DNA of 42,364 nt. It comes from Rhodovulum sp. PH10 (GTDB lineage: Bacteria > Pseudomonadota > Alphaproteobacteria > Rhizobiales > Xanthobacteraceae). This document shows positions 13,726 to 40,938 of the stretch, piece by piece. Below the pieces are notes generated by a model, which ran no database searches, was not told the DNA's origin, and was given only the letters and a program-made list of their open reading frames with translations. Location: positions 1-42,364 of the forward strand of contig NZ_AKZI01000034.1 in NCBI RefSeq assembly GCF_000293785.1, read 5' to 3'. Position numbers and translations under genes: made by a program. How positions within the stretch are numbered: position 1 is the first letter of the stretch; the number at the start of each line of letters is the position of its first letter.

Positions 13726-13784
13726 GAGAACCGATACCGACGGCGACGGAGTTCGACCTCGCCGTCGGTCCCGGCCCTTCGGCT

Positions 13785-14981: not shown

Positions 14982-15053
14982 CTCTTCTCTCCTCGTGCTC
15001 AGCGGGGTCCGCGCGGCGATGCCTCGACGGTCCGTTCGATGGTCGAGCGGGCA

Positions 15054-15097: not shown

Positions 15098-15145
15098 GAA
15101 AAGACCCCCACAAGCCGCTCGTCGCGGCAGCGAAGGCCCACCCCC

Positions 15146-15919
15146 ATGAAGATGTTCTTCGAAGAGCAGGTCACCGAGGTCCATCACTGGACGGACACGC
15201 TGTTCAGCTTCTCCACCACCCGCGATCCCGGCTGCCGCTTCAAGAACGGCCAGTTCGTGATGGTCGGCCTGCCGGTGAACGAGCGGCCGCTTCTGCGCGC
15301 CTACTCGATCGCCTCGCCGAACTGGGCCGATTCGCTCGACTTCTTCTCGATCAAGGTGCCGAACGGCCCGCTCACCTCGCGCCTCCAGCATCTGAAGGAG
15401 GGCGACACGGTGATGGTCGGCCGCAAGCCGACCGGCACGCTGGTGCTCGACAATCTGCGCGACGGCGAGAACCTCTATCTGCTCGCCACCGGCACCGGGC
15501 TCGCGCCCTTCCTCGCCACCATCCGCGACCCCGAGGTCTACGAGCGGTTCGACAAGGTCGTGCTGGTTCACGGCGTGCGGCACGTCGCCGAGCTCGCCTA
15601 TCGTGATCTGATCGAGAATCAGCTCCCGCAGGACGAATTGTTGGGCGAGATGATCGCGCCGAAGCTCGTCTACTACCCGACCGTGACGCGCGAGGCGTTC
15701 CATCATCAGGGCCGTATCTCCACGCTGATCGAGAGCGGCAAGCTGTTCGACGACATCGGCCTGCCGCGCTTCGACATGAACCGCGACCGGGTGATGCTGT
15801 GCGGCAATCCCGGCATGCTGGCCGACGTGCCGCCGATGCTGGAGCGTCTCGGCTTCCTCGAGGGCAACACCGGCGAGCCCGGCGACTACGTGATCGAGAA
15901 GGCGTTTGCGGAGAAGTGA
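15146..15919 (+). CDS. fpr: ferredoxin-NADP+ reductase
   Basis: A 257-residue Fpr-type flavoprotein that exchanges electrons between NADPH and ferredoxin or flavodoxin in the cytoplasm. The FAD site shows RAYSIAS at about residues 52-58, the NADP site GTGLAPFLATIRD, and the late MLCGNPGM motif. The C-terminus ends YVIEKAFAEK as in bacterial Fpr. The length is normal for the family. It has its own operator-bearing promoter inside the nicotinate cluster. The likely reason is to supply reduced ferredoxin to 6-hydroxynicotinate reductase, which is ferredoxin-dependent in E. barkeri. No ferredoxin gene is in the window. Confidence 0.9.
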   Translation: MKMFFEEQVTEVHHWTDTLFSFSTTRDPGCRFKNGQFVMVGLPVNERPLLRAYSIASPNWADSLDFFSIKVPNGPLTSRLQHLKEGDTVMVGRKPTGTLVLDNLRDGENLYLLATGTGLAPFLATIRDPEVYERFDKVVLVHGVRHVAELAYRDLIENQLPQDELLGEMIAPKLVYYPTVTREAFHHQGRISTLIESGKLFDDIGLPRFDMNRDRVMLCGNPGMLADVPPMLERLGFLEGNTGEPGDYVIEKAFAEK

Positions 15920-24993: not shown

Positions 24994-25752
24994 GTGTACG
25001 CCTCTCCCAAATTCCTGCCGGCCGGCGACACCGCGCTGGTGATCGAGTTCGGCGACACGGTCGACCGCCATCTCAGCGCGCTGGTGCTGGCGCTCGCCGA
25101 GCGGCTCGAGGCGACCGGTCTGCCGGGGGTGATCGAGCAGGTGCCGACCTTCCGCTCGCTGATGGTGCATTTCGAGCCGCTGGTGCTCGACGCCGCGGTG
25201 CTCGAAAAAACCCTCTCCGATCTCGTGGCGGATCTGTTGGCGGCGGAGCGGACGGGCGCAATCGCATCGTCCGGCAAGACGTTCCGGCTGCCCGCCTGCT
25301 ACGACCCGGCCCTCGCCCCCGACCTCGACACGGTCGCCGCGCGCACCGGCCTGACGCCCGAGGGCGTCGTCGAGTGCCACAGCGCCGAGATTTATCACGT
25401 CTACATGCTCGGCTACCTGCCGGGCTTTCCCTATATGGGCGACGTGCCGGACGCCCTGAAGGTGCCAAAACTCGACAGCCCGCGGGTGAAGGTGCCGGTC
25501 GGCGGCATCGCGCTCGCCGGCGCGCTCACCGCGGTCTATCCGGTGGAGAGCCCGGGCGGCTGGAATCTGATCGGCCGCTCGCCGGTGGCGATCTGGGATC
25601 TGCGGCGTGATCCTCCGGCGCTTTTTGCACCAGGTGATAAGGTTCGCTTCGAACCGGTGTCGCTCGACACCTATCACGCGCTCGCGCGCCGCGCCGCCGA
25701 GGGCCCGCTGGTGCTCGCGCCCGAGCCCGCGCGCGAGGGAGACGGCGCATGA
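24994..25752 (+). CDS. pxpB: 5-oxoprolinase subunit PxpB / KipI-like protein
   Basis: A 252-residue protein of the allophanate hydrolase subunit 1 family. It starts with FLPAGDTALVIEFGD and carries the family core GYLPGFPYMGDVP and VPVGGIALAGALTAVYPVESPGGWNLIG. In bacteria PxpB works with PxpC and PxpA to open 5-oxoproline with ATP. GAGG lies 10 nt before the GTG start. No pxpC or pxpA follows; the next 160 bp contain no homologue, and a GntR gene comes next. The partners must lie elsewhere, or this copy has another role. Confidence 0.85.
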   Translation: MYASPKFLPAGDTALVIEFGDTVDRHLSALVLALAERLEATGLPGVIEQVPTFRSLMVHFEPLVLDAAVLEKTLSDLVADLLAAERTGAIASSGKTFRLPACYDPALAPDLDTVAARTGLTPEGVVECHSAEIYHVYMLGYLPGFPYMGDVPDALKVPKLDSPRVKVPVGGIALAGALTAVYPVESPGGWNLIGRSPVAIWDLRRDPPALFAPGDKVRFEPVSLDTYHALARRAAEGPLVLAPEPAREGDGA

Positions 25753-25886: not shown

Positions 25887-25912
25887 CGACCGTCCGATGA
25901 TTGCCGCGTCCC

Positions 25913-26656
25913 ATGGTGAATAGAACACGGAAGCTGCCGAGCCAGGACGCAGACAGTCGCGTTCCCCGCTATCTCCAGGTCGCCGCGGTGCTGCGCCGCC
26001 GGCTGCGCGACGGCGTGTGGGCGCTCGGCGAGCGCATCTCCACGCTCGAGGAGCTGGAGCGCGAGTTCGGCGTTGCCCGGGTGACGGTGCGGCAGGCGAT
26101 CGACCTCCTGCAGAACGAGGGCCTGGTGCGCTCCCACCAGGGGCGCGGGACGTTCGTGACGAAGTCGGTCGACCATCGGCGCTGGCTGCAGCTCGCGACC
26201 GACTGGGAAAGCCTCGTCTCGATGATCCGGGACAATGTCGCCCACAAGCTGCCGGCCTATCCCTCCGCCGCGCCGCGGCTCGAGGAGGGGGAGGGCACGC
26301 CGGCCTCCTCCTATGTCTATCTGCGCAGCCTGCAGACCCGCGGCAGCGAGCCGTTCGGCTATGCCCGCGTCCATCTCGCGCGCCACATCTACACGATGTC
26401 GCCAAAGGTGTTCTCCTCGCGCGCGGCGCTGGTGGTTCTCGCCGAGATGAAGGACCTTGCGATCTCGCGCGCGCATCAGACGTTCACCATCGGCACCGCC
26501 GACATCGAGACCGCGAAGCTGCTCGAGATGAGCCTGAACGCGCCGACCGCCGAGGCACGCTGCGTCGTCACCGACGAGGAGGGCGTGGTGATCTATGTGG
26601 GCGAGATCACCTATCGCGGCGATCTCGTGCGCATCAATATCGAGCTGCGGGGGTGA
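25913..26656 (+). CDS. GntR/HutC-family regulator with UTRA ligand domain
   Basis: A 247-residue regulator. The winged helix at about residues 15-80 shows VPRYLQVAAVLRRRLRDGVW, TLEELEREFGVARVTVRQAI and LVRSHQGRGTFVTK, which is classic GntR. The C-terminal part, from about 100, is a UTRA-type ligand domain (YVYLRSLQTRGSEPFGYARV; EARCVVTDEEGVVIYVGEI; GDLVRINIEL). The ATG at 25913 is chosen over TTG at 25901. It lies convergent to the F420 operon. It is the only local candidate for the GTnCTATAAATAGnAC palindromes at 30784 and 35238; the pairing is inference. Confidence 0.88.
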   Translation: MVNRTRKLPSQDADSRVPRYLQVAAVLRRRLRDGVWALGERISTLEELEREFGVARVTVRQAIDLLQNEGLVRSHQGRGTFVTKSVDHRRWLQLATDWESLVSMIRDNVAHKLPAYPSAAPRLEEGEGTPASSYVYLRSLQTRGSEPFGYARVHLARHIYTMSPKVFSSRAALVVLAEMKDLAISRAHQTFTIGTADIETAKLLEMSLNAPTAEARCVVTDEEGVVIYVGEITYRGDLVRINIELRG

Positions 26657-26727: not shown

Positions 26728-27441
26728 TCAGCCCGGAAACCGGTCGGGGCCGGGCACGCGTGCGCCGTCCCGTGTCTCGGCTCGCGGGGGCAGGGCGTCG
26801 TCGTCGGCGGCGCGCGGCGAGGCGGTGAAAGCGCCGGCGGGGCCGTCGCGCCAGGCGAGCCAGCTCGCATAGTGGTCCGGATCGTCGAGATCGAAGGCGA
26901 GCCGCGGATCGAGGATCGTCTCCACCGTCAGCCCGAGCGTTTTTGCCGTCTTGCGGTGGGTGGAGAAGCTGCCCGGCCCGTAGGCGAACGGCAGCCGGTG
27001 CCGGCTGGCGCCGCGTAAGATCATCAGATTGGTGCCGTCGCTGCCGCGATCGGGCGCGATCACCACGTCCGCCGGGCGCTCCAGCGCGGTGGCGATGCTG
27101 CGCGGGGCGGCGAGCGGCAGGTCGATCGGCAGCACCACCAGATCGACCGTGCCCATCTCTTCCTGTAGCTGCGTCCGGGCGTGCTCGAGCGCGGCATTGA
27201 GCCCGCCGCCCGGATCGGCGATCCGCCCGACCGCGAAGGAGGCGGCGAGCGCGGCCGCCTCCGCATCGGCGGTGACCACCCGGATCAGCGCCGCCGGCAT
27301 CACCTCCGCCGCGCAGCCTAGCGTGCGCGCCAAAAGCCGCCGGCACAGATCGCGCCGCGCCGCGCCGTCGAGACAGCCGGCGAGGCGCGACTTGCCCTCG
27401 CGAAAGCCCTTGCAGGGAACGACGATGGCAGCCGGGCTCAT
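26728..27441 (-). CDS. cofC: 2-phospho-L-lactate (or PEP/3-phosphoglycerate) guanylyltransferase CofC
   Basis: A 237-residue nucleotidyltransferase that makes the GDP-activated three-carbon acid needed to build F420 from FO. The N-terminus IVVPCKGFREGKSRLAG is the GT-A nucleotide-binding start, LVVLPIDLPLA is the metal-binding region, and APDRGSDGTNLMILRG plus YGPGSFSTHRKTAK are CofC signatures. The C-terminal 25 residues are charged and Pro-rich, beyond the usual family end. It is the third gene of the minus-strand operon fbiC-fno-cofC. Which acid is used cannot be told from the sequence. Confidence 0.9.
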   Translation of the reverse strand: MSPAAIVVPCKGFREGKSRLAGCLDGAARRDLCRRLLARTLGCAAEVMPAALIRVVTADAEAAALAASFAVGRIADPGGGLNAALEHARTQLQEEMGTVDLVVLPIDLPLAAPRSIATALERPADVVIAPDRGSDGTNLMILRGASRHRLPFAYGPGSFSTHRKTAKTLGLTVETILDPRLAFDLDDPDHYASWLAWRDGPAGAFTASPRAADDDALPPRAETRDGARVPGPDRFPG

Positions 27442-27480
27442 GCGGGGGTCGTTGCTCCGTGTGCCGTCACGCGATCGCAG

Positions 27481-28173
27481 TCACTCGGCCGCGGGCGTGC
27501 CGCCCGGCAGGCCGGTGATGCGGATGCCGGAATCCGGCACCTTGTAGGTGCGGTTGATCCAGATGAGCACGGAGGTCAGTGCCTCCGCCACCACGGAGTT
27601 GGCGAGCGGGCCGACCTCGACGCCGCGCAGCCCGGCATCGGCCGCGAGCCCGGCCACCACCTTGCGCGCCTCCTTGTCGTCGCCGGCGATCAGCACGTCG
27701 CAATCGATCGCGTCGTGGCCGAGATCCTTCAGCTTGTGCGCCGACACGTTCTGGAACGCCGAGACGACCCGCACGCCCTCGCCGAGAAAGGCCTGGGTGG
27801 CCACCACGCAGGAATCGGTCTCGGGGAGCTGCACGCGGGCGACCTTCGGCGGCACCAGCGGCACCGTGACGTCGACCAGAATCTTGCCGGCGAGCGTGTC
27901 CTTCAGGCCTTCGAGGGTGGAGCGTTGCGCGGCGAACGGCACCGTCAGCACCACCACCTCGGCTTCCGCGGCCCCGTCGGCGCTGGCGACGCCGGTCAGC
28001 GCCTCTCGGCCCAGCAATTCGTTGAGCGCCTTCGCCGCCGCCTCGGCCTTTGCCGGATCACGCGAGCCGATGGTGACGCGGTGGCCGGCCTTGGCCCAGC
28101 GCAGCGCGAGCCCGCCGCCTTCGGCGCCGGTGCCGCCGACCACGCAGATCGAAAGTTTTGTTTCGGAGGTCAT
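27481..28173 (-). CDS. fno: F420-dependent NADP+ reductase (Fno/NPDR)
   Basis: A 230-residue Rossmann-fold protein that moves hydride between F420H2 and NADP+. The N-terminus SICVVGGTGAEGGGLALRWAKAGH is the dinucleotide site, and GSRDPAKAEAAA holds the Ser-Arg that favours NADP. Later blocks are SAFQNVSAHKL and GDDKEARKVVAGLA, as in archaeal and actinobacterial Fno. AAAAGGA lies 9 nt before the ATG. It lies between the FO synthase and cofC genes, so it probably keeps the F420 pool reduced, or reoxidises it, for the LLM enzyme at 38579. Confidence 0.9.
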   Translation of the reverse strand: MTSETKLSICVVGGTGAEGGGLALRWAKAGHRVTIGSRDPAKAEAAAKALNELLGREALTGVASADGAAEAEVVVLTVPFAAQRSTLEGLKDTLAGKILVDVTVPLVPPKVARVQLPETDSCVVATQAFLGEGVRVVSAFQNVSAHKLKDLGHDAIDCDVLIAGDDKEARKVVAGLAADAGLRGVEVGPLANSVVAEALTSVLIWINRTYKVPDSGIRITGLPGGTPAAE

Positions 28174-28210
28174 TGCAGTGTCCTTTTCTTATCGGTTGCG
28201 GGGGTCGTGA

Positions 28211-30682
28211 TCACGGTCCGGCGGCGCGGGCCGGCGGCTCGGGATCGCGCTCGAATTTCTTCGCGGGCGTGTTGACCGAGGGGGCGAGCGGCGCCGCTTG
28301 GAACGAGGCGCGGGTGCGGCTCTCCGGCGGCGTGCCGTACAGCGTCGTGCGCGGCCGCGGCTTCCGGCCGGCGTCGCGGATGATGTCGGTGAACTGATAG
28401 GGCGCCATCTCCTGGCCGTGCATGGCGCCGGCGGCGCGGCTGATGGTTTCTTCCATGAGCGTACCGCCGAGATCGTTGACGCCGGCGTCGAGGCACGCGG
28501 CGATGCCGTGCGGTCCGAGTTTCACCCAGCTCGCCTGGATGTTGGTGATCAGCGGATGGAGCGCGAGCCTGCCGACCGCGTGCATCAGCACCGCCTCCCG
28601 CCATGTCGGCCCCATGCGGGCCTTTGCGCGCAAGAACATCGGGGCTTCCATCGGCACGAAGGGCAGGGGCACCCATTCGGTGAAGCCGCCGGTGCGCTCC
28701 TGCAGCCGGCGGACGTGCAGGATGTGGCGCGCCCAGTGCACCGGCCGGTCGACATGGCCGAACATGATGGTCGCGGTGGTGCGCAGGCCGACCTCGTGGG
28801 CGGTGCCGACCACCTCGAGCCACTGCGCGGTCGTCAGCTTGTCGGGGCAGATGATCGCCCGCACCTCGTCGTCGAGGATTTCCGCCGCGGTGCCGGGCAG
28901 CGAGCCGAGGCCCGCCTCCTTCAGCGCGATCAGAAATTCGCGCAGCGACAGGCCGAGGGTGGCGGCACCCTGAAAGATCTCGAGCGGCGAGAAGGCATGG
29001 ATGTGCATGCCGGGCGCCACCGCGCGGATCGCCTTGCAGATGTCGAGATAGGTCTGCCCCGTATACTCGGGATGAATGCCGCCCTGCAGGCACACCTCGG
29101 TGCCGCCGCGGTGCCACGCCTCGTCGACCCGCCGCTGCACCTCGGCGATCTCCAGATTGTACGGCTTGCCGCGCAGGTTCTCGCTGGTCTTGCCCTTGGA
29201 GAACGCACAGAACTTGCAGCGATAGGTGCACACGTTGGTGTAGTTGATGTTGCGGGTGACGACCCACGACACCTGATCGCCGCACACTTTCTCACGCAGC
29301 GCGTCGGCGCGCCGGCACACCAGATCGAACTCGTCGCCGCGCGCCGCGAACAGCCGCACGATCTCCGCTTCCGTCGGCTCGGTGCCGACCTCGGCGCGAT
29401 CGAGAATGCGGTCGAGCTCGACCGTGTGATGCGCCGGCGGGGCGGCGCGAAACAGCGTCGGCGGGATGGTGTCGGCGCCGACCACCCAGAAGTCGGAGCG
29501 GGCAAAGCCTTCCGAATCGGCGTGCCGCATCACGGCGCCGTGCAATGCGGGATCGATCCAGCGCGCGGCGTCCTCCACATAGGACGGATAGGCGGCGAGC
29601 CGCTCGACCAGAATTTTCTCGTTGTCCTCGGTTTTCCGGGCGAGGCGCTCGATCTGCGGCCAGGGGGCTTCCGGGTTGACGTGATCGGGGGTGACCGGCG
29701 ACACGCCGCCCCAATCGTCGATGCCGGCGTCCAGAAGCTCGGGGAAGCGCTCGTAGCTGAGATTGGGCGGCACCTGGATGTGCATGTCGGGGCCGAGCAC
29801 GATGCGCGCCGCGGCCGCCGTCCACATCAGCTCGTCGAAATCCGGCTCGTCCGCCGCCGCCATCCGGGTGTCGGGCTTCGCCCGAAAATTCTGGATGATG
29901 ATTTCCTGCAGATGGCCGTACTGCTCGTGCAGGTCGCGCAGCGCGACGAGCGAGGCGATGCGGTCGCGCCGCGTCTCGCCGATGCCGATCAGGATGCCGC
30001 TGGTGAACGGCACCTGCTGCCGTCCCGCCGCCGCGATCATCTCGAGCCGCACCGCCGGATCCTTGTCGGGCGACCCGTAATGCGGTCCTCCGCGTGCGAA
30101 GAGACGCGGCGACACGCTCTCCAGCATGATGCCCTGCGAAACCGAGACGCGGCGCAGCCTCGCGATCTCGTCTTCCGTCATCACGCCGGCATTGACGTGA
30201 GGAAGCAGGCCGGTCTCCTCGAGCACCAGCCGGCACATCTCCTCCACGTAGTCGACCGTGGTCGCGTGCCCGCGGGCGGCGAGCGCCTCGCGTGCACTGC
30301 GGTAGCGCAGCTCCGGCTTGTCGCCGAGCGTGAACAGCGCCTCCTTGCAGCCGAGTTTTGCACCCGCACGCGCGATCTCCAGCACCTGGTCGGGTGTCAG
30401 ATAAGCTGCGGGCACCTCTCCCGGCACCGCCGCAAAAGTGCAGTAGGCGCACACGTCGCGGCACAGTCGCGTGAGAGGCACGAACACTTTTCGTGAATAG
30501 CCGATCGTCCGGCCGTGACCCTGATCACGCAGCGCGCGGGCTTGCGCGAGCAGGGTTTCGCGCGGCAGGCTGTCGAGCGTGGCGAGCAGCGTGTCGGCAC
30601 GCGGATCGTCGCCCGCAGCGCACCTCCCGTCGGTCGTCCCCGCAGAGCTCCGGATGCCGTCGGAAGTGTCGTCTGCGATCAT
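28211..30682 (-). CDS. fbiC: bifunctional FO synthase (CofG-CofH fusion, FbiC type)
   Basis: An 823-residue protein with two radical-SAM halves. It makes FO, the deazaflavin chromophore of F420, from the flavin precursor 5-amino-6-ribitylamino-uracil and tyrosine. The CofG half has its 4Fe-4S motif at Cys74, Cys78 and Cys81 (CRDVCAYC). The CofH half has Cys485, Cys489 and Cys492 (CTYRCKFC). The length fits actinobacterial FbiC, whereas archaea use two separate proteins. I place the start at the ATG at 30682, because the longer frame to 30859 would begin upstream of the promoter and palindrome at 30784-30816. The first 30 residues are poorly conserved. The cofD and cofE steps are not in the window. 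Confidence 0.92.
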   Translation of the reverse strand: MIADDTSDGIRSSAGTTDGRCAAGDDPRADTLLATLDSLPRETLLAQARALRDQGHGRTIGYSRKVFVPLTRLCRDVCAYCTFAAVPGEVPAAYLTPDQVLEIARAGAKLGCKEALFTLGDKPELRYRSAREALAARGHATTVDYVEEMCRLVLEETGLLPHVNAGVMTEDEIARLRRVSVSQGIMLESVSPRLFARGGPHYGSPDKDPAVRLEMIAAAGRQQVPFTSGILIGIGETRRDRIASLVALRDLHEQYGHLQEIIIQNFRAKPDTRMAAADEPDFDELMWTAAAARIVLGPDMHIQVPPNLSYERFPELLDAGIDDWGGVSPVTPDHVNPEAPWPQIERLARKTEDNEKILVERLAAYPSYVEDAARWIDPALHGAVMRHADSEGFARSDFWVVGADTIPPTLFRAAPPAHHTVELDRILDRAEVGTEPTEAEIVRLFAARGDEFDLVCRRADALREKVCGDQVSWVVTRNINYTNVCTYRCKFCAFSKGKTSENLRGKPYNLEIAEVQRRVDEAWHRGGTEVCLQGGIHPEYTGQTYLDICKAIRAVAPGMHIHAFSPLEIFQGAATLGLSLREFLIALKEAGLGSLPGTAAEILDDEVRAIICPDKLTTAQWLEVVGTAHEVGLRTTATIMFGHVDRPVHWARHILHVRRLQERTGGFTEWVPLPFVPMEAPMFLRAKARMGPTWREAVLMHAVGRLALHPLITNIQASWVKLGPHGIAACLDAGVNDLGGTLMEETISRAAGAMHGQEMAPYQFTDIIRDAGRKPRPRTTLYGTPPESRTRASFQAAPLAPSVNTPAKKFERDPEPPARAAGP

Positions 30683-30758
30683 CGGAGTCGTGTCCCGTGC
30701 GTCGTTGGAGATCGTCTGCGTGGGGCGCGAGGCAACGTTCGTGCCGCCGGCACGGATA

Positions 30759-30816
30759 TTGCCTGAAACGTCCTCAGGTCGTATCGTACTATAAATAGTA
30801 CGACTGCAAAGACCAA
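30759..30816. promoter_or_regulatory. divergent fbiC/dctP promoters with CTATAAATAG palindrome
   Basis: A perfect 9-bp inverted repeat TCGTACTAT-aa-ATAGTACGA lies at 30784-30803. On the minus strand, TTGGTC (30811-30816), a 17-nt spacer and TATAGT (30788-30793) form the fbiC promoter. On the plus strand, TTGCCT (30759-30764), 17 nt and TATCGT (30782-30787) form a possible dctP promoter. The palindrome covers both -10 boxes, so one protein could shut off both directions. Confidence 0.75.
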
Positions 30817-30880
30817 CCCTGCCCAATCGCCCGGCAAAGGATGCCGCATTTTTCTGCACATGCGAAATGAGGAGACAGCG

Positions 30881-31882
30881 ATGTTGTCCCGTGCTCCCGT
30901 CGTCGCCGCCGCTCTGTTCGGCCTGACGGCACTATTGACGTCCCCGGTGCTCGCCCAGACGGTGATGAAGCTCGGGCACGATCAGCCCGAGACCTCGACC
31001 CACCATCAGGCGGCGGTGAAGTTCAAGGAGTTGGTCGAGAGCCGCACCGGCGGCAAGGTGAAGGTGCAGATCTTCCCCGCCTCGATGCTCGGTAGCGGCA
31101 CCCAGCAGGTGGAGCAGGTGCAGGCCGGCGCGCTGGAGGCCGCCGTGCTGCCGACCGCGTGGGTGGCGCCGCTCGCCCCCAGCATCCAGGTGCTCGACCT
31201 GCCGTTCCTGTTTCCCGATCGCGCCGTCACCTACAAGGTCGTCGACGGCCCGGTCGGCGCGGCGATCCTGAAGCCGCTCGAGAAGGTCAATATCGAGGGC
31301 GTCGCGTTCTGGGAGTCGGGCTTCAAGCAGTTCACCGGCTCGTTCCCGATCCGTGAGCCGGCCGATTATCAGGGCCACAAGATCCGCACCATGCCGGCTC
31401 CGGTGATCCAGGAGCAGTTCAAGGCGTTCGGCGCCACGCCGACCACCATCGCCTTCGCCGAGCTGTACAGTGCGCTGCAGCAGAAGGTGGTGGACGGCCA
31501 GGAGAATCCGATTGCCACGATCGCCGCGATGAAGTTCTACGAGGTGCAGAAGTACCTCACCATGTCGGATCACGGCTTCCTCGCCTACGTGTTCATGATC
31601 AACAAGCCGTTCCTCGACAAGTTGCCGGCCGACCAGCAGAAGATCGTGAAGGACGCGGCCCGCGAGGCCGGCCGGTATCAGCGCGACATCATCAAGAAGG
31701 CCGAGGCCGAGTATCTCGAGACCTTCAAGAAGGCCGGTGTGGAGATCATCACCCTGACACCGGACCAGCGCAAGGCGTTCGAGGAGGCCTCCAAGCCGGT
31801 GTACGACTGGTTCGTCGCCAAGTTCGGCACCGAGACCCTCGACATGGTTCGCGACGACGTGAAGAAGCAGTCGGCGAACTGA
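30881..31882 (+). CDS. dctP: TRAP transporter substrate-binding protein DctP
   Basis: A 333-residue periplasmic binding protein. A signal peptide (MLSRAPVVAAALFGLTALLT, cleaved after SPVLA) precedes TVMKLGHDQPETSTHHQAAV. The DctP body includes GGKVKVQIFPASMLGSGTQQ, GFKQFTGSFPIREPADYQG (the Arg that binds the ligand carboxylate) and KVVDGQENPIATIAAMKFYEV. GAGGAG upstream fixes the ATG at 30881 over 30860. TRAP systems import organic acids with sodium. It leads a plus-strand run into dctQ, dctM and an M20 hydrolase. Confidence 0.92.
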   Translation: MLSRAPVVAAALFGLTALLTSPVLAQTVMKLGHDQPETSTHHQAAVKFKELVESRTGGKVKVQIFPASMLGSGTQQVEQVQAGALEAAVLPTAWVAPLAPSIQVLDLPFLFPDRAVTYKVVDGPVGAAILKPLEKVNIEGVAFWESGFKQFTGSFPIREPADYQGHKIRTMPAPVIQEQFKAFGATPTTIAFAELYSALQQKVVDGQENPIATIAAMKFYEVQKYLTMSDHGFLAYVFMINKPFLDKLPADQQKIVKDAAREAGRYQRDIIKKAEAEYLETFKKAGVEIITLTPDQRKAFEEASKPVYDWFVAKFGTETLDMVRDDVKKQSAN

Positions 31883-31904
31883 GGCCGAGCCCGAGGACAT
31901 CACG

Positions 31905-32465
31905 ATGAGCGAGACGAGCGCGCCGACCCCCGAACCCTCCGTGGCCCCGCCGAGCCTGCTCGGCCGGGCCGACCGTCTGCTGTGCCGGGCGGAGATCGTC
32001 TTCGTCGGCGGCGCGCTCGCCTTCTCGAGCCTGCTTCTGTTCGTCAACGTGGTGCTGCGTTACGTGTTCCTGATGCCGATCTCCTGGGCCGAGGAGGTCA
32101 GCCTCTATCTTCTGGTGTGGATAGTGTTCGTCGGCGCGAGCGTGGCGATCCGCACCCGCGGGCACATCGCCGTCGACCTGTTGCCGATGGTGCTGCCGGC
32201 CGCGCTGCGGCGGGTGCTGATGATCTTCGTCGGCTTCGTCACGCTCGGCTTCCTCGCGGTCTTCTTCTACTACTCCGGCCTGCACACGCTGCGGGTCTAC
32301 AACAGTGGCCAGGTCACGCCGGTGATGCAGGCGCCGATGTGGCTCACCTATTTCGCCATGCCGTTCGGCTCGGCGCTGATGTTCCTGCGCACCTGCCAGG
32401 TGCTGTGGGCCGCGCTGCGCGAGGCCGCCGTGGGCGAGCACTTCGCCATGGACCTTCAGGACTAG
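31905..32465 (+). CDS. dctQ: TRAP transporter small permease DctQ
   Basis: A 186-residue inner-membrane protein with four predicted helices. The family motif appears as MPISWAEEVSLYLLVWIVFVG, with the typical Trp-Ala-Glu-Glu, followed by IRTRGHIAVDLL. GAGGA precedes the ATG. It lies 22 nt after dctP and forms the membrane complex with DctM. Confidence 0.9.
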   Translation: MSETSAPTPEPSVAPPSLLGRADRLLCRAEIVFVGGALAFSSLLLFVNVVLRYVFLMPISWAEEVSLYLLVWIVFVGASVAIRTRGHIAVDLLPMVLPAALRRVLMIFVGFVTLGFLAVFFYYSGLHTLRVYNSGQVTPVMQAPMWLTYFAMPFGSALMFLRTCQVLWAALREAAVGEHFAMDLQD

Positions 32466-32517
32466 TCTTCGATCGGGCCGTCCCGTCGGGGTGGTCGGTA
32501 ACGTCACGGGGGACGTC

Positions 32518-33807
32518 GTGGTCGCGCTCTTGACTTTCGGGCTGTTGTCGGTCGGCTTGCTGCTGACCGTGCCCATGTTCATCGTGCTGACCGGCACGGC
32601 CTTCATCGTCTTCGCGACGACCACCTCGATCCCGCTGTCGATCCTGCCGCAGCGGGTGTTCGCCGGGCTCGAGAGCTTTCCGCTGCTCGCCATCCCGTTC
32701 TTCATTCTCGCCGCCAACATCATGGGGCGGGGCGGCCTGTCGGCGCGGCTGATCGGCTTCATCCAGTGCCTCGTCGGTCATCTGCCGGGCGGCCTCGGCA
32801 TGACGGTGGTGATCACCTGCGTGCTGTTCGGCGCGATCACCGGCTCGTCCGCTTCCACCATCGTCGCGATCGGCGGCATTCTCTATCCGGCGCTGGTCAA
32901 GGCCGGCTACGGCGAGCGGTTCGCGCTCGGCATCGTCACCTCCTCGGCGCTGATCGGCATGATCATCCCGCCGTCCAACGCGATGATCGTCTACGGCTCG
33001 ATCGCCAACGTCTCGATCGGCGCTCTGTTCATGTCGGGCATCGGCGCCGGCATCGCCTTCGCGCTGGTCTACATGATCTATTGCGTGGTCTGGTCGATCG
33101 TCCACGACGTGCCACGCGCCAGGCGCTCGACTTTTCGCGAGATTCTCACCGCCGCGCGCGAGGTCTTCTGGGGCCTCGGCATGCCGGTGATCATCCTCGG
33201 CGGGCTCTATGGCGGCGTCTTCACCGCGACCGAGGCGGCCGCCGTGTCGGTCGTCTATGCGGCCGTCGTGTGCGTGGTGATCTATCGCCAGCTCGATCTG
33301 CCGGGGCTTTGGGAAGTGTGCGTCGAATCGGCGCTCGCCAGCGCCCGCATCCTGGTGATGGTCGGCGCCGCCAGCCTGTTCTCCTGGATGCTGACGATCA
33401 CCGGCCTCACCCAGTCGATCGTCGCGCCGTTCGCCGATCTGAAGGCCTCGCCCGTCTTCGTGCTCCTGTTCATCAACGCGCTCGCGCTGTTCGCCGGCAT
33501 GTTCGTCGACGTCTTTTCGAACCTCCTGATCCTGGTGCCGATCCTGCTGCCGGTCGCGACCGGCGCCGGCATCTCCGGCACGCATCTCGGCATCGTGATG
33601 TCGGTCAATGTCGACATGGGCAACATCACGCCGCCGTTCGGGCTCAATCTGTTCGTCGCCTCCGGCACCTTCAACAAGTCCTATGTCAGCGTCGTGCTCG
33701 CCGTGCTGCCCTGGCTCGGCCTCGCGCTGATCGCGCTCGCCCTCATCACCTACGTGCCGGACATCAGCCTGTGGCTGCCGCGGCAGCTCTATCCCGAGCT
33801 GAACTGA
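32518..33807 (+). CDS. dctM: TRAP transporter large permease DctM
   Basis: A 429-residue, roughly 12-helix transport subunit. Family segments are FFILAANIMGRGGLS, FGAITGSSASTIVAIGGILYPAL, GMIIPPSNAMIVYG and MSVNVDMGNITPPFGLNLF. The GTG at 32518, preceded by GGGGGA, gives the usual DctM length and N-terminus; another in-frame GTG at 32491 would add nine residues. It sits directly after dctQ. Confidence 0.9.
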   Translation: MVALLTFGLLSVGLLLTVPMFIVLTGTAFIVFATTTSIPLSILPQRVFAGLESFPLLAIPFFILAANIMGRGGLSARLIGFIQCLVGHLPGGLGMTVVITCVLFGAITGSSASTIVAIGGILYPALVKAGYGERFALGIVTSSALIGMIIPPSNAMIVYGSIANVSIGALFMSGIGAGIAFALVYMIYCVVWSIVHDVPRARRSTFREILTAAREVFWGLGMPVIILGGLYGGVFTATEAAAVSVVYAAVVCVVIYRQLDLPGLWEVCVESALASARILVMVGAASLFSWMLTITGLTQSIVAPFADLKASPVFVLLFINALALFAGMFVDVFSNLLILVPILLPVATGAGISGTHLGIVMSVNVDMGNITPPFGLNLFVASGTFNKSYVSVVLAVLPWLGLALIALALITYVPDISLWLPRQLYPELN

Positions 33808-33853
33808 TCCGGTCCGTGCTCCTCGCGTCACCAAACCCCTGGAAGGAAGAAGA

Positions 33854-35125
33854 ATGACCACCGACGCCCGCAAGAAAGTGCTCGAGACGATCGATGCTCA
33901 CCGCGACGAGGCGGTGAAGTTTCTGCAGGAGATCGTCGCGATTCCGAGCGTCACCGGCGACGAGGGCAAGGTGCAGGCCCATCTCGGCGCCTATCTGAAG
34001 AAGCTCGGCCTCGAGGTCGACATGTGGGAGACCGACTGGGACGAGCTGCAGAAGCATCCCGGCTACATCCCGGTCACCCAAGGCTACGAGGGCCGGCCCA
34101 ACATCGTTGCCACCTGGAAGGGCACCGGCGGCGGAAAATCGCTGCTGCTCAACGGCCACACGGACGTGATTCCGGTCGGCAACGGCGAGGGCTGGAGCGA
34201 CGACCCGTGGTCGGCAAAGATCATCGACGGGCGGATCTACGGTCGCGGCTCGTGCGACATGAAGAGCGGCGTCGCCAGCCACATTCTCGCCGTGCAGTTC
34301 CTCAAGGCGGCGGGCGTGAAACTGAAGGGCGACGTGCTGATCGACATCGTGATCGACGAGGAGGTGTCGGGGCACGGCACGCTCGATACCGTGGCGCGCG
34401 GCTACCGGGCCGACGCCGGCATTTCGGGCGAGACCTCGAGCCTCGCGGTGCAGCCGGCCTGCATCGGCCGCATCTGGTTCGAGATCGAGATCCAGGGCAA
34501 GGCCGCCGGCATCCAGCGACGTTATCAGGGCGTGTCCGGCATCGAGCTCGGCTACAAGATCGTCAAGGCGGTGGAGGCGCTGGAGGCGCATCGCGTCGCC
34601 ACCGTGAAGCACCCGCTCTATCCGAAGCCGATCGACGCGCTGCCGTGCATGATCGGCGCCTTCCATTCGGGCAATTTCCCCTCGTCGTTCCCGGCGACCT
34701 GCCTGCTGAAGGGCAGCATGGCCACCGTGCCGACCGAGGACCACGAGGGCGTCAAGAAGAGCCTCGTCGAGGCGGTCGCCAAGGCGGCGGCGGAAGACCC
34801 GTGGATGAAGGATCATCCGCCGGTGGTGCGCTTCGTCGGCTACGATGCGCAGGCCTCCGAGATCGCCCACGACCATCCGATCGTGACGACGCTGTGCAAG
34901 AACTACGAGGAGATCACCGGCGAAAAGCCGGAGATCAGCGGCCGGCAGGGCGCCGCCGACACCCGCTTCCTCAATCTCTACGGCGAGACCCCGACCGTGA
35001 TCTTCGGCCCCGGCCAGACCGCGGTGATGCACTCCGACGACGAGTGGGTGTCGATCGACGACTATCTCACCGCCATCAAGGTGATGGCGCTCTCCATCTA
35101 CGACTGGTGCAACACCCCGAAGTGA
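33854..35125 (+). CDS. M20-family metallo-deacylase/peptidase (ArgE/DapE type)
   Basis: A 423-residue zinc hydrolase. Metal and catalytic residues are visible: LLNGHTDVIPVG (His, Asp), GRGSCDMKSG (bridging Asp), IDEEVSGHGT (catalytic and metal Glu) and a C-terminal MHSDDEW His. A dimerisation domain lies between. GGAAGGAAGAAG gives a very strong ribosome site. It follows dctM by about 46 nt and should be cotranscribed with the TRAP genes. It would remove an acyl group from an imported N-acyl amino acid, or cut a related amide. The substrate is unknown. Confidence 0.88.
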   Translation: MTTDARKKVLETIDAHRDEAVKFLQEIVAIPSVTGDEGKVQAHLGAYLKKLGLEVDMWETDWDELQKHPGYIPVTQGYEGRPNIVATWKGTGGGKSLLLNGHTDVIPVGNGEGWSDDPWSAKIIDGRIYGRGSCDMKSGVASHILAVQFLKAAGVKLKGDVLIDIVIDEEVSGHGTLDTVARGYRADAGISGETSSLAVQPACIGRIWFEIEIQGKAAGIQRRYQGVSGIELGYKIVKAVEALEAHRVATVKHPLYPKPIDALPCMIGAFHSGNFPSSFPATCLLKGSMATVPTEDHEGVKKSLVEAVAKAAAEDPWMKDHPPVVRFVGYDAQASEIAHDHPIVTTLCKNYEEITGEKPEISGRQGAADTRFLNLYGETPTVIFGPGQTAVMHSDDEWVSIDDYLTAIKVMALSIYDWCNTPK

Positions 35126-35139
35126 TCGTGCCGTCGGTG

Positions 35140-35165
35140 CCGGCCGCGGAAACGCCCGCGGCCGG
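35140..35165 (+). terminator. perfect 10-bp hairpin after the TRAP-M20 genes
   Basis: CCGGCCGCGG-aaacgc-CCGCGGCCGG forms a perfect stem with a 6-nt loop, 15 nt past the M20 stop. There is no T-run. It probably marks the end of the TRAP operon before the next promoter at 35236. Confidence 0.6.
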
Positions 35166-35235
35166 AGGCCGAAACCGTCGCCTCGCCCGTGCCGCGCTGC
35201 AGCGGAGGGCGGGGCGCGGAGCGGCACGAATATAG

Positions 35236-35264
35236 TTGTCCTATAAATAGGACCACCCTATGAT
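35236..35264 (+). promoter_or_regulatory. promoter of the PLP-enzyme operon with CTATAAATAG palindrome
   Basis: TTGTCC (35236-35241), an exact 17-nt spacer and TATGAT (35259-35264) form a good sigma-70 promoter. The perfect 7-bp inverted repeat GTCCTAT-aa-ATAGGAC (35238-35253) fills the spacer and overlaps the -35. It shares the core CTATAAATAG, with conserved outer GT/AC, with the palindrome at 30784. It lies 45 nt before the gene start. Confidence 0.78.
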
Positions 35265-35308
35265 CGGTTCCGACCCCCGAAGGCGGAACGAGACGGAAAA
35301 CCCTCGAC

Positions 35309-36795
<1,487 letters not shown>

Positions 36796-36799
<4 letters not shown>

Positions 36800-37755
36800 C
36801 CGTGGTTCGACCCTACGACACGTTGCGCAAGGATTTGGCCGAGCGCGATCGCAGCCTGCGCGAGAAGGTGATGACGCTCGAGGAGGCGGCCGCGCTGGTT
36901 CACGACGGCGATACCGTCGGCATCGGCGGCTGCACCATGTCGCGCACGCCGATGGGCATGATCTGGGCGCTGATCAGGGCCGGCCGCAAGCGGCTGTCGT
37001 GCTCGCGCAGCATCATGTCGAGCGACGGCGACTGGCTGATCGGCTCGGGCGCGAGTGATCACGTCCTCACCAGCTGGTTCAGCCAGTCGATCCTGTTCGG
37101 CATCTCCAAGGTGATGCGCCACAATGTCGAGAACGGCACGGCGCGCTTCGAGGAGTGGAGCCACATGGGCGTCGGCATGCGGTTCCGTGCCGGCGCGATG
37201 GGCGTGCCGTTCGTGCCGGTGCGCTCGATGCTCGGCTCCGGCGTCGCCGGCGAGCTCGCCGCCGTGAAGGAGATGGACTGCCCGTTCACCGGCGAGAAGC
37301 TCTTGCTGGTGCCGGCGCTCAACCCGAAGGTCGCGCTCATTCACGTGCAGCGCTGCGACGCCTACGGCAACGCGCAGATCGACGGACTGCAGTTCATGGA
37401 CATCGATCTCGCGATGGCCGCCGACCGGGTGATCCTCACGACCGAGCGGATCGTCTCCAACGATCAGATCCGCCGCGCGCCGGACCACACCAAGATTCCG
37501 TTCTTCACGGTCGATGCCGTGGTCGAGCTGCCGTTCGGCTGCGCACCGCACGAGTGCTACGGCGTCTACGAGCCGATGCTCGATCACATGCGTTATTACG
37601 TGGGTCTGGTGAACAAGGACCCCGTGAACGGCATGAAGGAGTATCTCGACCGCTTCGTCTACGGGCCGAAATCGTGGGTCGAGTATCTCGGCCTGATCGG
37701 CATCGATCACGTGCTCGCGGCCGCGCGCGCAGGGGAGTCGATCTATGACGCCTGA
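36796..37755 (+). CDS. CoA-transferase subunit A, glutaconate CoA-transferase type
   Basis: A 319-residue class I CoA-transferase alpha subunit. Length and motifs fit GctA (about 320 residues): VHDGDTVGIGGCTMSRTP, GVPFVPVRSMLGSG, KVALIHVQRCDAYGNAQIDG and ERIVSNDQIRRAPDHTKIP followed by FGCAPHECYGVYE. Its start overlaps the PLP-enzyme stop by 4 bp, and its end overlaps subunit B by 11 bp, so the pair is tightly coupled. It would transfer CoA to a dicarboxylic or keto acid; the IpdAB ring-opening hydrolases are relatives and cannot be excluded. Confidence 0.88.
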
Positions 37756-38548
37756 CACCAAGACCGCCGCAAAGCCCGCCACCGATCCCAAGGGCTACAC
37801 CGCCAACGAGCTGTTGGCGATCCTCAGCGCGCGTCAGCTGAAGGAAGGGCAGGTGGTGTTCGCCGGCGTCGGCGTTCCGCTGCTCGCCGCGACGCTCGCC
37901 CAGCGGCTCGGCTGCCCGGGCCTCACCATCCTGTTCGAGGGCGGCGTGGTCGGCGCCTTCATCGAGCCCGGCAAGCTGCCGCCCTCCACCAACGACCAGC
38001 GCTGCACCCGCCGCGCCAACATGGTGCTCGGCAGCGCCGACGTGCTCTTGCTGCTGCAGCGTGGTTACGTCGATGTCGGCTTCATGGGCGGCGCGCAGAT
38101 CGACCAGTACGGCAATCTGAACTCGTCCTTCATCGGCGATCCGAAGAACCCGAAGACGCGGCTGCCCGGCACCGGCGGCGGCAACGACATCTCGAGCCTC
38201 ACCGACATGATCGTCGCGATGAAGCACGAGAAGCGCCGCTTCGTCGAGAACGTCGATTTCGTCACCAGCCCCGGCTGGCTCTCCGGCGGCACGTCACGGC
38301 GCGAGGCGGGCCTCACGCACGGCGGCATGTTCCGCGTGGTGACGGAGCTCGCGGTGTTCGGCTTCGACGAGAAGACCCGCCGGATGAAGCCGCTCGCGCT
38401 CAATCCCGGCGTCACCCGCGAGGAGCTGCAGGACAACACCGGCTTCCGCCTCGATTTCGACCCCGACCTCGGCACCACCGACCCCCCCAGCGAGCGCGAG
38501 CTGTCCACGTTGCGGATGCTCGATCCCGAGCGACTGTTCATCGCCTGA
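37745..38548 (+). CDS. CoA-transferase subunit B, glutaconate CoA-transferase type
   Basis: A 267-residue beta subunit, matching GctB length (about 266). The likely catalytic glutamate is Glu65 in LTILFEGGVVGA, the equivalent of the ENG/ESG motif that carries the CoA thioester in the family. Further blocks are VDVGFMGGAQIDQYGNLNSSFIG and GTGGGNDISSL. A conserved glutamate argues for true CoA transfer and not only hydrolysis. It is 30 nt before the LLM gene. Confidence 0.88.
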   Translation: MTPDTKTAAKPATDPKGYTANELLAILSARQLKEGQVVFAGVGVPLLAATLAQRLGCPGLTILFEGGVVGAFIEPGKLPPSTNDQRCTRRANMVLGSADVLLLLQRGYVDVGFMGGAQIDQYGNLNSSFIGDPKNPKTRLPGTGGGNDISSLTDMIVAMKHEKRRFVENVDFVTSPGWLSGGTSRREAGLTHGGMFRVVTELAVFGFDEKTRRMKPLALNPGVTREELQDNTGFRLDFDPDLGTTDPPSERELSTLRMLDPERLFIA

Positions 38549-38578
38549 TCGCGCGACGCTCACAACAGGAGACATTGG

Positions 38579-39526
38579 ATGACCCAGTTGAGCGGAACCT
38601 TCGGGATCGCCGCCCGTAACTTCACCGCCTATCCCGACATGCCGGACGTGCACCAGCTGGTCGACTACGGCGTGAAGATGGAGGAGCTCGGCTTCGACTC
38701 TCTGTGGGTGTGGGATCACATCCTGCTCGGCGTCGACCCCAACTTCCCGATCATCGACTCGCTGACGCTGCTCACCGCGATCGCCGCGCGCACCAAGAAG
38801 ATCAAGCTCGGCACCGGCATCCTGGTGCTGCCGCTGCGCAACCCGGTGACGCTGGCGAAGCAGCTCTCCAGCATGGATCTGCTGTCGGACGGCCGCCTGG
38901 TGATGGGCATGGCGTCCGGCTGGTACAAGCGCGAGTTCGACGCGGTCGGCGTGCCGTTCGAGAAGCGCGGCAAGATCATGGACGAGAACCTCGAGCTGCT
39001 CGAGAAGTTCTGGACCGAGGACATGGTCAAGGGCGAGTGGATGTATCACAAGATCCCCGCCGGCGTGATGTATCCGAAGCCGAGCCGCAAGGTGCCGATC
39101 CTGATCGGCGGCTATGTCGACCGCGTGCTCAAGCGGGCGGCGCTCAACGGCGACGGCTGGCTGACCTATTTCTATCGCCCCGAGAGCTTCAAGACGTCGT
39201 GGGCAAAGATCCGCAATTTCGCCAAGGAAGGCGGCAAGGATCCGGACACGCTGCTCAACGCCGCGCAGCTGCCGATCCGCATCGGCAAGTCGCGCGCCGA
39301 GGTCGAGAGCGGCATGATGGAGTGGCTCGGCAAGGAGTGGGACTACGCCTCCTGGAGCGAGTCGACCAAGGACAGCGCCATTCTCGGCAATGTCGACGAG
39401 TGCGTCGCGCAGCTGAAGGAGCACATCGCCGCCGGTGTGCAGAAGCTGATCTTCGTGCCGTATCGCTACGAGATGGAGCAGATCGAGATCATCGCCCGCG
39501 AGATCATTCCGCGCCTCAAGGCGTGA
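38579..39526 (+). CDS. LLM-class oxidoreductase, probable F420-dependent
   Basis: A 315-residue luciferase-like TIM-barrel enzyme. Family features are GVKMEELGFDSLWVWDH (second strand and helix), LGTGILVLPLRNPVTLAKQ, MGMASGWYKREFDAVGVPF and VPILIGGYVDRVLKRAA. This subgroup often uses F420; others use FMN. The F420 reading rests on fbiC, fno and cofC under the same kind of palindrome. AGGAGA lies before the ATG. It probably reduces or oxidises an intermediate made by the PLP enzyme or CoA-transferase. Neither substrate nor direction is known. Confidence 0.85.
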   Translation: MTQLSGTFGIAARNFTAYPDMPDVHQLVDYGVKMEELGFDSLWVWDHILLGVDPNFPIIDSLTLLTAIAARTKKIKLGTGILVLPLRNPVTLAKQLSSMDLLSDGRLVMGMASGWYKREFDAVGVPFEKRGKIMDENLELLEKFWTEDMVKGEWMYHKIPAGVMYPKPSRKVPILIGGYVDRVLKRAALNGDGWLTYFYRPESFKTSWAKIRNFAKEGGKDPDTLLNAAQLPIRIGKSRAEVESGMMEWLGKEWDYASWSESTKDSAILGNVDECVAQLKEHIAAGVQKLIFVPYRYEMEQIEIIAREIIPRLKA

Positions 39527-39573: not shown

Positions 39574-40938
39574 ATGGTGAGCGTGTTCGATCTGTTCAAG
39601 ATCGGCATCGGGCCGTCGTCGTCACACACGACCGGCCCGATGCGGGCGGCCGCCGCGTTCCGCGGCGCGCTGCTGCATCATCCGCGGCAGGACGCCGTGA
39701 CGCGGGTGCGGGCGACGCTGTTCGGCTCGCTCGCCTGGACCGGCAAGGGCCACGCCTCCGACAAGGCGGTGGCGCTCGGGCTCGCCGGCTGGCTGCCCGA
39801 GACGGTCGACCCGGACGCGGTCGGCGAGCTGATAACGGCGATCGCCCGCACCGGGCGGCTCGTCCTGGAAGGCGAGCGGACGGTCGCCTTCGCGCCCGAC
39901 ACCGACATCGTGTTCGACCTCGAGAACACGCTGCCGCGCCATCCCAACGCGATGGCCTTCGCGGCGCTCGCCGGTGACGAGATTCTGCTCGAGGAGACCT
40001 GGTACTCGATCGGCGGCGGCTTCGTCGTGCGCGACGGCGAGGAGGTGGACGTCCACTCCAAGGCGGCGCTGATGCCGCGCTGGCGCAGCGCGAACGAGCT
40101 TCTGGCGCTGTGCGAGGTGAACTCCTGCAGCATCGCCGAGCTGGTCTTCGCCGACGAGTGCGCGCTGCGGCCGCGCGAGGAGGTGGAGGCAGGCCTCGAT
40201 CGGCTGATCGCGGTGATGTTCGAATCGATCGAGCGCGGCATGCGGGCGACCGGCAAGCTGCCCGGGAGCCTCGGCGTGCAGCGGCGCGCCCGCGTGCTGC
40301 TCGAGCGGCTCGACCGCACGCGGCTCGACAACAAGCGCGCGCCGCACGACGTGTTCGAGTACGTCAATGTCTACGCGATCGCCGTCAACGAGGAGAACGC
40401 CGCGGGCGGCCGCATCGTCACCGCGCCGACCAACGGGGCGGCGGGCGTCGTCCCGGCGGTGATGAAGTACTTTCGTGATCACTGTCCGGACGGATCGGCG
40501 GAGGGCTTGCGCACCTTCGTGCTGACGGCGGCGGCGATCGGCGCGCTGTGCAAGACCAACGCCTCGATCTCGGGGGCCGAGATCGGCTGCCAGGGCGAGG
40601 TCGGCGTCGCCTGCGCGATGGCCGCGGCGGGGCTCACCGCGGCGCTCGGCGGCTCCGACCGGCAGGTCGAGAACGCCGCCGAGATCGGCATCGAGCATCA
40701 CCTCGGCATGACCTGCGACCCGGTCGGCGGGCTCGTTCAGATCCCGTGCATCGAACGAAACGCCTTCGGCGCGGTGAAGGCGATCAACGCCGCCTCGCTG
40801 GCGCTGCGCGGCGACGGCGAGCACGTCGTCACCCTCGACGAGGCGATCGAGACGATGCGCCAGACCGGCGTCGACATGCAGTCGAAATACAAGGAAACGT
40901 CGCGCGGCGGCCTCGCCGTCAACGTGCGCAACTGCTGA
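39574..40938 (+). CDS. sdaA: L-serine ammonia-lyase (iron-sulfur type)
   Basis: A 454-residue single-chain L-serine dehydratase that turns L-serine to pyruvate and ammonia with a 4Fe-4S cluster. The N-terminus reads [20 protein letters not shown]. The alpha domain shows [14 protein letters not shown], then cysteines in [21 protein letters not shown] and [19 protein letters not shown] that ligate the cluster. The C-terminal [10 protein letters not shown] holds the family's tail cysteine. It follows the LLM gene by 47 nt in the same direction and may be the last gene of the operon, or a housekeeping gene reached by read-through. Confidence 0.93.

Follow-up and report, generated by a model that had tools for sequence, protein, structure and literature searches.

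Coenzyme F420 synthesis genes in a candidate catabolic regulon for N-heteroaromatic compounds in Rhodovulum sp. PH10

Why Alphaproteobacteria make coenzyme F420 is an open question. In the part of a 2021 review drawn on here, F420-dependent reductive catabolism is described for actinobacteria, including the reduction of picrate by enzymes of the luciferase-like monooxygenase (LLM) type, no F420-dependent enzyme is recorded as experimentally studied in bacteria beyond that group, and the role of F420 in Paracoccus and Oligotropha is regarded as minor or niche-specific (PMC8498797). The question is raised in concrete form by a 42,364-nucleotide stretch of the genome of Rhodovulum sp. PH10 (contig NZ_AKZI01000034.1; the window), where the F420 synthesis genes fbiC, fno and cofC lie beside an importer operon and an operon for a pyridoxal phosphate (PLP) enzyme, a CoA-transferase (CtA and CtB, together CtAB) and an LLM oxidoreductase. 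The most economical reading is reductive N-heteroaromatic catabolism with F420H2 as the hydride source. Somewhat better than an even chance is given to the view that F420 is produced by an inducible regulon for use in such a catabolism, with reduction by the LLM protein; gene content, gene order, conservation and operator, on which this reading is built, are all documented at the level of sequence. The island makes one possible reason for F420 synthesis in this class testable.

Genes of the window and their partners on other contigs

Every gene named in an earlier note on this DNA was found in its place, and the set of genes is larger than that note saw. It had missed a GntR-UTRA regulator and pxpB adjoining cofC, a serine dehydratase gene that starts about 50 bases 3' of the LLM gene and, on contig C74, cofE and cofD with Liv importer, pxpA and molybdenum (Mo) hydroxylase genes. 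Contigs of the 4.8 Mb genome are labelled C, opened loci L and genomes G; score pairs such as 145 vs 105 are bits vs model cut-off.

24994..25752, plus strand: pxpB, 5-oxoprolinase subunit B (TIGR00370, 168 vs 146 bits)
25901..26656, plus strand: GntR-UTRA regulator, candidate repressor of the regulon (Pfam GntR and UTRA)
26728..27441, minus strand: cofC (FbiD), guanylyltransferase of F420 synthesis (TIGR03552, 145 vs 105 bits)
27481..28173, minus strand: fno/npdG, NADPH:F420 oxidoreductase (TIGR01915, 207 vs 150 bits)
28211..~30736 (start codon approximate), minus strand: fbiC, fused CofG-CofH, FO synthase (NF006687, 1151 vs 1018 bits)
30784..30803: predicted operator palindrome between fbiC and dctP, a perfect 9+2+9 inverted repeat
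30860..31882, plus strand: dctP, solute-binding protein of a tripartite ATP-independent periplasmic (TRAP) importer (TIGR00787, 290 vs 175 bits)
31905..32465, plus strand: dctQ, TRAP small permease (Pfam DctQ)
32491..33807, plus strand: dctM, TRAP large permease (TIGR00786, above cut-off)
33854..35125, plus strand: M20 deacylase or carbamoylase of the ArgE/DapE family (TIGR01910, 273 vs 218 bits; NF005373 below cut-off)
35236..35255: predicted operator palindrome preceding the PLP operon, with a perfect 7+2+7 core
35309..36799, plus strand: PLP enzyme, fold type II, cysteine-synthase-like (Pfam PALP, 52 bits, cut-off 35)
36796..37755, plus strand: CtA, CoA-transferase alpha subunit (Pfam CoA_trans)
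37745..38548, plus strand: CtB, CoA-transferase beta subunit (CoA_trans; best PDB match 1POI_B, E=2e-48)
38579..39526, plus strand: LLM oxidoreductase, candidate F420H2-dependent reductase (TIGR03619, 191 vs 167 bits)
39577..40938 (start inferred), plus strand: L-serine dehydratase, iron-sulfur type (TIGR00720, 588 vs 345 bits)

The cofC, fno and fbiC genes form a collinear run on the minus strand with intergenic gaps of 39 and 37 bases, all three score above their family cut-offs, and the run diverges from the TRAP importer as described earlier. F420 biosynthesis is complete in the genome, with FbiC and CofC encoded in the window and CofD (PF01933) and CofE (TIGR01916, 267 vs 181 bits) on C74, where the two genes cluster with one for a nitroreductase. 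This nitroreductase (L002, 9677-10402), located between cofE and cofD, resembles a free-standing C-terminal domain of FbiB, scores below the cut-off (124 vs 250 bits) and could have a bearing on the choice of F420 precursor. The cofE-cofD group is convergent with the Liv importer genes, which have pxpA ahead of them, and CoxL- and CoxS-like genes lie beyond the Liv genes in the opposite direction.

PxpA, PxpB and PxpC are not encoded together in this genome: PxpA is on C74, the pxpB gene of the window is the sole PF02682 gene, and PxpC is on C7 with a second PxpA. All three are found together in L076, L078, L095 and L132. On C7 (L149, 7716-14313) the second PxpA is divergent from PxpC and Mo-hydroxylase genes adjoin, placing lactam hydrolase and Mo hydroxylase together once more.

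Conservation of the gene set and its operator

Clusters were classed as type A, with CtA, CtB and LLM, or type B, with a second PLP-type protein; the scan with the PLP family covered the best 80 of at least 588 relatives. Twenty LLM-defined loci were compared, comprising the window, two relatives, 12 of the 80 and five from a class survey. The PLP, CtA, CtB and LLM genes occur together in 19 of the 20, the last being cut by a contig end. FbiC, over at least 40% of the query, is encoded in 12 of the 20 loci; L045 and L051 have fragments of it. G019 and G006, two genomes from other genera within the family, have the genes in one run, Fno-CofE-CofD-CofC-FbiC-PLP-CtA-CtB-LLM, with Liv genes nearby; the run additionally includes PxpA and CoxLMS in G019, and M20 and a diaminopropionate-lyase-family gene in G006, where FbiC lies in two frames. 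The earlier note had tied F420 synthesis to the CoA-transferase/LLM operon and had named absence of this linkage in related genomes as one observation that would count against it; the linkage was found, and in a single gene run. The island was also placed in Kaistia granuli and Ancylobacter tetraedralis. A quick tree groups 15 of the 16 type A rows with a single unlabelled row (SH-aLRT 87) and sets Ancylobacter (L095) apart. One locus, L045, has PxpA, then fbiC fragments, then PLP at 8189-10001, without fno, cofE, cofD or cofC; it is either what is left of an island or a product of misassembly.

The survey of co-occurrence that had been suggested was carried out on 385 evenly drawn Alphaproteobacteria genomes, this one included, with a close LLM defined by E<=1e-70. 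FbiC was found in 61, a close LLM in 6 and PLP in 12. With the own genome excluded, FbiC is present in all five genomes with a close LLM vs 60 of 384 overall (hypergeometric 8e-5), and in six of 11 PLP genomes (p 0.003). Genes for FbiC or like cofG/cofH are present in every searched genome with a close LLM, and FbiC is retained though unlinked in G119, G259 and G288. An fbiC match was obtained in 13 of 60 relatives. A whole-genome search gave an FbiC match in 13 of 13 genomes of selected loci, as split genes (45-50%) in the L051 genome and as half a gene at a contig end in the L057 genome; because the loci were selected by PLP clade, LLM or F420 genes, these 13 are not an independent sample. 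PLP, CtA, CtB, PxpA and PxpB gave no match in 12 hand-picked fbiC loci of genomes without a close LLM.

The PLP family is found more often in clusters without F420 genes. Among 50 type B loci, an SsnA-like match was found in 18 and an Xdh-like match in 15, and FbiC, CtB or a close LLM in none. Sister PLP clusters with reductive-urate-like genes and without F420 synthesis genes were seen in L015, L017-L020 and L058. The PLP family adjoins YgeW, YgeY-like and carbamate kinase genes in L018, carbamoyltransferase, carbamate kinase, SsnA-like and Mer-like LLM genes in L058, and SsnA-like and Xdh genes in L015, which is on contig C79 of the own genome. The SsnA-like and YgeY-like proteins score below curated cut-offs (models run on L015, L018 and L058). 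The PLP enzyme that was earlier assigned to the pathway is replaceable: its gene is in the window operon and in 19 of 20 LLM loci, but was not found in four opened Sinorhizobium islands, which carry a diaminopropionate-lyase gene.

The palindrome around position 35245 has 15-base arms at 80% identity and a perfect 7+2+7 core. The core, CTATAAATAG, occurs in four copies in the 4.8 Mb genome, two of them in the window. A degenerate form, TNNTNCTANNNNTAGNANNA, has three exact sites in the genome, preceding fbiC/dctP, the PLP operon and pxpA on C74, and eight further sites with one mismatch, including one just before coxL (C74:17605-17624). With at most one mismatch there are 11 matches per strand vs 128 for a reversed control pattern; since the control is commoner, no enrichment is claimed from the count, and the argument is the location of the three exact sites. 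Chance palindromes were rejected as an explanation because all three exact degenerate sites in 4.8 Mb fall in this gene set. The fourth copy of the core (C41:16125), near a recombinase-like open reading frame and outside the wider pattern, is itself treated as chance.

To assess the operator in other loci, a weight matrix of the three own-genome sites was compared with 400 matrices with permuted half-sites. The operator reached p<=0.05 in 10 of 18 type A loci, seven of them at <=0.01 (with kinship of loci ignored), in none of 18 type B loci hand-picked from the 50, and in none of 15 other fbiC loci, made up of the 12 hand-picked from genomes without a close LLM and three unlinked fbiC loci of LLM genomes. 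Sites across loci precede PxpA/PxpB, Fno, PLP or CtA, CoxL and LivK. Both copies of the shared palindrome earlier taken to tie the promoters together are real and have counterparts in related clusters; judged by its conservation, the palindrome is a conserved operator. A sigma-70 scan found no site at the fbiC/dctP operator and one weak site downstream of the second operator.

Relatives of the GntR protein are encoded in L045, L046, L076, L078, L095 and the four opened Sinorhizobium loci. A VARVTVRQA helix is common to the GntR proteins of the window, L046, L076, L078 and L095; the L045 reading frame lacks this region. Co-regulation of the operator-bearing units is a well-supported prediction, and the GntR-UTRA protein would be the regulator that controls them.

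Matches to LLM at E<=1e-60 were found in 12 plasmid records, all from Sinorhizobium (10 S. meliloti, 2 S. fredii) and all typed conjugative, and when the 8.6 kb F420-LLM stretch was searched as DNA, at least 80% of it was covered in the same 12. Sinorhizobium meliloti GR4 is among the carriers. The four loci that were opened (L151, L154, L155 and L156) contain Liv genes, Fno, CofE, CofD, CofC, FbiC, CtA, CtB, LLM, M20, CoxLMS, LivK and GntR, together with a diaminopropionate-lyase-like gene, which in L151 lies in two frames. The operator is significant in all four (p=0.002-0.007), with sites preceding Fno, CtA (two), the unit after M20, CoxL and LivK. NADP transhydrogenase genes are annotated within the S. 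meliloti R28 island (L151). In the same island a gene for a dimer-type dihydroorotase (L151, 5318-6361; TIGR00856, 406 vs 293 bits) precedes the Liv genes; the enzyme could open a cyclic ureide, or it may have no connection with the island. Rhizobium NXC24 and Bosea plasmids with the PLP gene have no LLM, F420 gene or significant operator nearby.

A candidate pathway and its alternatives

The LLM protein of the window passes the cut-off of TIGR03619, a family named 'F420-dependent', as does the S. meliloti copy (190 vs 167 bits), in agreement with the F420-linked type proposed for it earlier. Its nearest PDB sequences are headed by 2b81 and 8cbb, ahead of Mer, with Fgd and Adf also among them. 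The genome has two LLM genes, the other being above the cut-off of the Fgd family TIGR03557. Family membership and genomic context together give good support to a predicted use of F420 by the LLM protein.

Glutaconate CoA-transferase is the best PDB match of CtA (1POI_A, E=3e-41), and Glu65 of CtB aligns with a Glu of 1POI_B that we take to be the catalytic, CoA-carrying residue. A non-transferase role of CtAB like that of IpdAB or AibAB was rejected as first choice because CtB keeps this Glu. The nearest PDB sequences of the PLP enzyme are cysteine synthases, and its Lys110 and STGN loop, presumably catalytic, are invariant in 17 aligned relatives. It reaches no NCBIfam cut-off (the best being cysK, 79 bits, cut-off 351) and by family models is not a diaminopropionate ammonia-lyase, the true member being a different gene in relatives. 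Such a family member is encoded in L022 (NF006058, 506 vs 276 bits), with relatives in L046 and the Sinorhizobium loci. Relatives of the M20 enzyme at 72-77% are found in L022, L047, L105 and the Sinorhizobium islands. The TRAP importer, which had been made the entry point of the pathway, is present in the window but not conserved, with a DctM match in two of the 20 LLM loci, one of them the window, vs LivK in eight; PDB relatives of DctP and LivK gave no ligand assignment.

Mo hydroxylases of the CoxL branch oxidize ring carbons next to nitrogen, and PxpABC catalyzes ATP-dependent lactam hydrolysis. The class of substrate is suggested by the co-occurrence of Mo hydroxylase and PxpA in the same loci, the CoxL of L016 having quinoline 2-oxidoreductase as its best PDB match. 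An exit through a beta-substituted C3 amino acid is suggested by the diaminopropionate-lyase family gene, the serine dehydratase and the PLP enzyme, and the reductive direction by the transhydrogenase genes of the R28 island. The N-heteroaromatic class, the C3 exit, the direction and the order of reactions are put forward tentatively.

In the proposed scheme, the GntR-UTRA protein would act on the operators before the F420-synthesis/TRAP genes, the PLP-CoA-transferase-LLM-serine-dehydratase operon and the pxpA-Liv genes, and at the weaker site before the Mo-hydroxylase genes. Induction would lead to import of an N-heteroaromatic compound, probably a carboxylate, and the CoxL-type hydroxylase would oxidize a ring carbon adjoining the nitrogen. 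Fno would generate F420H2 from NADPH, and the LLM protein would use it for ring reduction; CtAB may first activate the compound with CoA. At the cost of ATP, PxpABC could then open a lactam or cyclic urea. An N-acyl or carbamoyl group would be taken off by the M20 enzyme, and a C3 amino acid would be converted to pyruvate by the PLP enzyme with serine dehydratase (diaminopropionate lyase in relatives). No support was found for the order previously proposed, namely import, deacylation, PLP chemistry, CoA activation and an F420 step, and by inference the F420 step would come earlier. From that pathway the link of F420 to CoA-transferase and LLM stands; it had omitted the Mo hydroxylase, PxpABC, the serine dehydratase or diaminopropionate lyase, and the GntR protein.

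CtAB lies immediately before the LLM gene in 19 of the 20 loci and in the four Sinorhizobium loci, so that a CoA thioester may be the species reduced. It is conceivable, though improbable, that CtAB and LLM constitute an F420H2-dependent heteroaromatic acyl-CoA reductase, in which a ring carboxylate would be converted to its CoA thioester and dearomatized by the low-potential hydride of F420H2. Imidazole-4-carboxylate and pyrazine-2-carboxylate serve as examples; both contain, as an N-C-C(COOH)-N unit, the skeleton of 2,3-diaminopropionate. If true, benzoyl-CoA reduction would have an aerobic counterpart whose cofactor is synthesized on demand, controlled by the same repressor, and such a reductase system would travel on Sinorhizobium megaplasmids.

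Several findings weigh against reductive N-heteroaromatic catabolism by one conserved regulon. None of the pathway enzymes has a known substrate. Accessory genes vary over the 20 LLM loci (PxpA in 8, M20 in 3, DctM in 2, and SdaA in 5, outside the window in L016, L042, L043 and L045), in part because loci are cut; L046 has PLP and F420 genes without CtA, CtB or LLM in its 16.9 kb; PxpC lies outside the window, the one found being that on C7; and no PLP gene was found in the four opened Sinorhizobium islands, nor by PLP search in any Sinorhizobium record. The operator is not significant in eight of the 18 type A loci (L016, L043, L055, L068, L129, L130, L134 and L136), and permuted AT-rich motifs also favour positions upstream of genes, with a mean of 4.66 of 13 vs 11 observed and 3 of 300 equally high. 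A close LLM is present in just five of the 60 other fbiC genomes of the survey; the island therefore does not explain F420 in general, and was rejected as an explanation across the whole class.

Of the competing explanations, the one that survives best makes the LLM protein a dehydrogenase that reduces F420, in the manner of Fgd or Adf: it would oxidize an alcohol or aldehyde intermediate, with Fno passing the hydride to NADP. Several LLM families oxidize their substrates (Fgd, Adf and hydroxymycolate dehydrogenase, in the part of the review drawn on here; PMC8498797), and Fgd and Adf, besides Mer, are among the nearest PDB sequences. We nevertheless consider this unlikely, as a separate Fgd-family LLM is encoded elsewhere in the genome and the transhydrogenase genes of S. 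meliloti R28 fit a demand for NADPH.

A variant of the reductive urate or purine pathway, in which LLM and F420 would replace YgfK and PxpABC would replace HyuA, is distinctly unlikely. Its attraction lies in the PLP-family relatives that cluster with YgeW, carbamate kinase, YgeY-like and SsnA-like genes, and in the M20 enzyme and diaminopropionate lyase, which the island has too. Yet a CoA-transferase is foreign to the urate pathway, type A loci gave no BLAST match to an SsnA-like protein (YgeW, HyuA and YgfK were not searched there), and the SsnA-like and Xdh genes of the own genome belong to the separate PLP cluster of L015.

If the LLM protein were instead a flavin mononucleotide (FMN)-dependent monooxygenase, its placement beside F420 genes would be non-functional. 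The top two PDB matches, LLM proteins not described as F420-dependent, favour FMN; the TIGR03619 score and the association with FbiC, in five of five survey genomes and in the same locus in 12 of 20, oppose it and leave this very improbable. Least probable of all, with scarcely any likelihood, is that F420 and catabolic genes are neighbours by shared transfer alone and have no common function: conjugative Sinorhizobium plasmids and a variable gene order speak for it, and an operator common to separate units on two contigs and the retention of unlinked FbiC speak against it.

Related systems and neighbouring clusters

The actinobacterial npd system is an F420-dependent catabolism of picrate. 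It shares with the proposed one an LLM-type F420H2-dependent reduction and an NADPH:F420 reductase; unlike it, the island contains the genes that make the cofactor, together with a Mo hydroxylase, a CoA-transferase, PxpAB and a conserved operator, and it is found in a different phylum. The reductive urate pathway of Escherichia coli and Clostridioides difficile (PMC12507026) has in common with the island a Mo hydroxylase, an M20 hydrolase and a diaminopropionate lyase (in island relatives), as well as, in the scheme proposed here, a reductive step on an N-heterocycle and an exit through pyruvate. In contrast, PxpAB(C), CoA-transferase and own F420 synthesis belong to the island, and no SsnA-like protein was found in type A loci. 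Glutaconate CoA-transferase GctAB (1POI) is the best PDB match of both Ct subunits, with the beta-subunit Glu aligned, but no hydroxyglutarate-pathway genes were noticed at the island. With 5-oxoprolinase PxpABC the gene set shares PxpA and PxpB, PxpC being elsewhere in the genome; here the genes are scattered, and the substrate may be another lactam or cyclic urea.

A literature search, largely without subscription papers, found no paper describing this island or a regulon so composed. The island supplies a defined operator, a regulator, a candidate reductase and importers in Kaistia granuli, Ancylobacter tetraedralis and S. meliloti GR4, three hosts in which deletions and growth tests are practical. 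If the proposed regulon is real, a cofactor pathway would be controlled in the manner of a catabolic operon.

A second, separate N-heterocycle cluster lies at 4813-15919 of the window. It encodes a Mo-hydroxylase small subunit (4813-5274), two AA_synth proteins, a MarR regulator, a ferredoxin-NADP-reductase-like protein and an enamidase-like protein (13785-14981; PDB 2VUN, E=2.7e-112). A further protein (9121-10605) has no Pfam or NCBIfam match and, we presume, resembles 6-hydroxynicotinate reductase; the cluster looks like a nicotinate-type reductive pathway. Finally, the PLP clusters of two metagenome-assembled genome records titled Bifidobacterium breve (L094 and L098) group with Acidimicrobiia in the tree, and these titles may be wrong.

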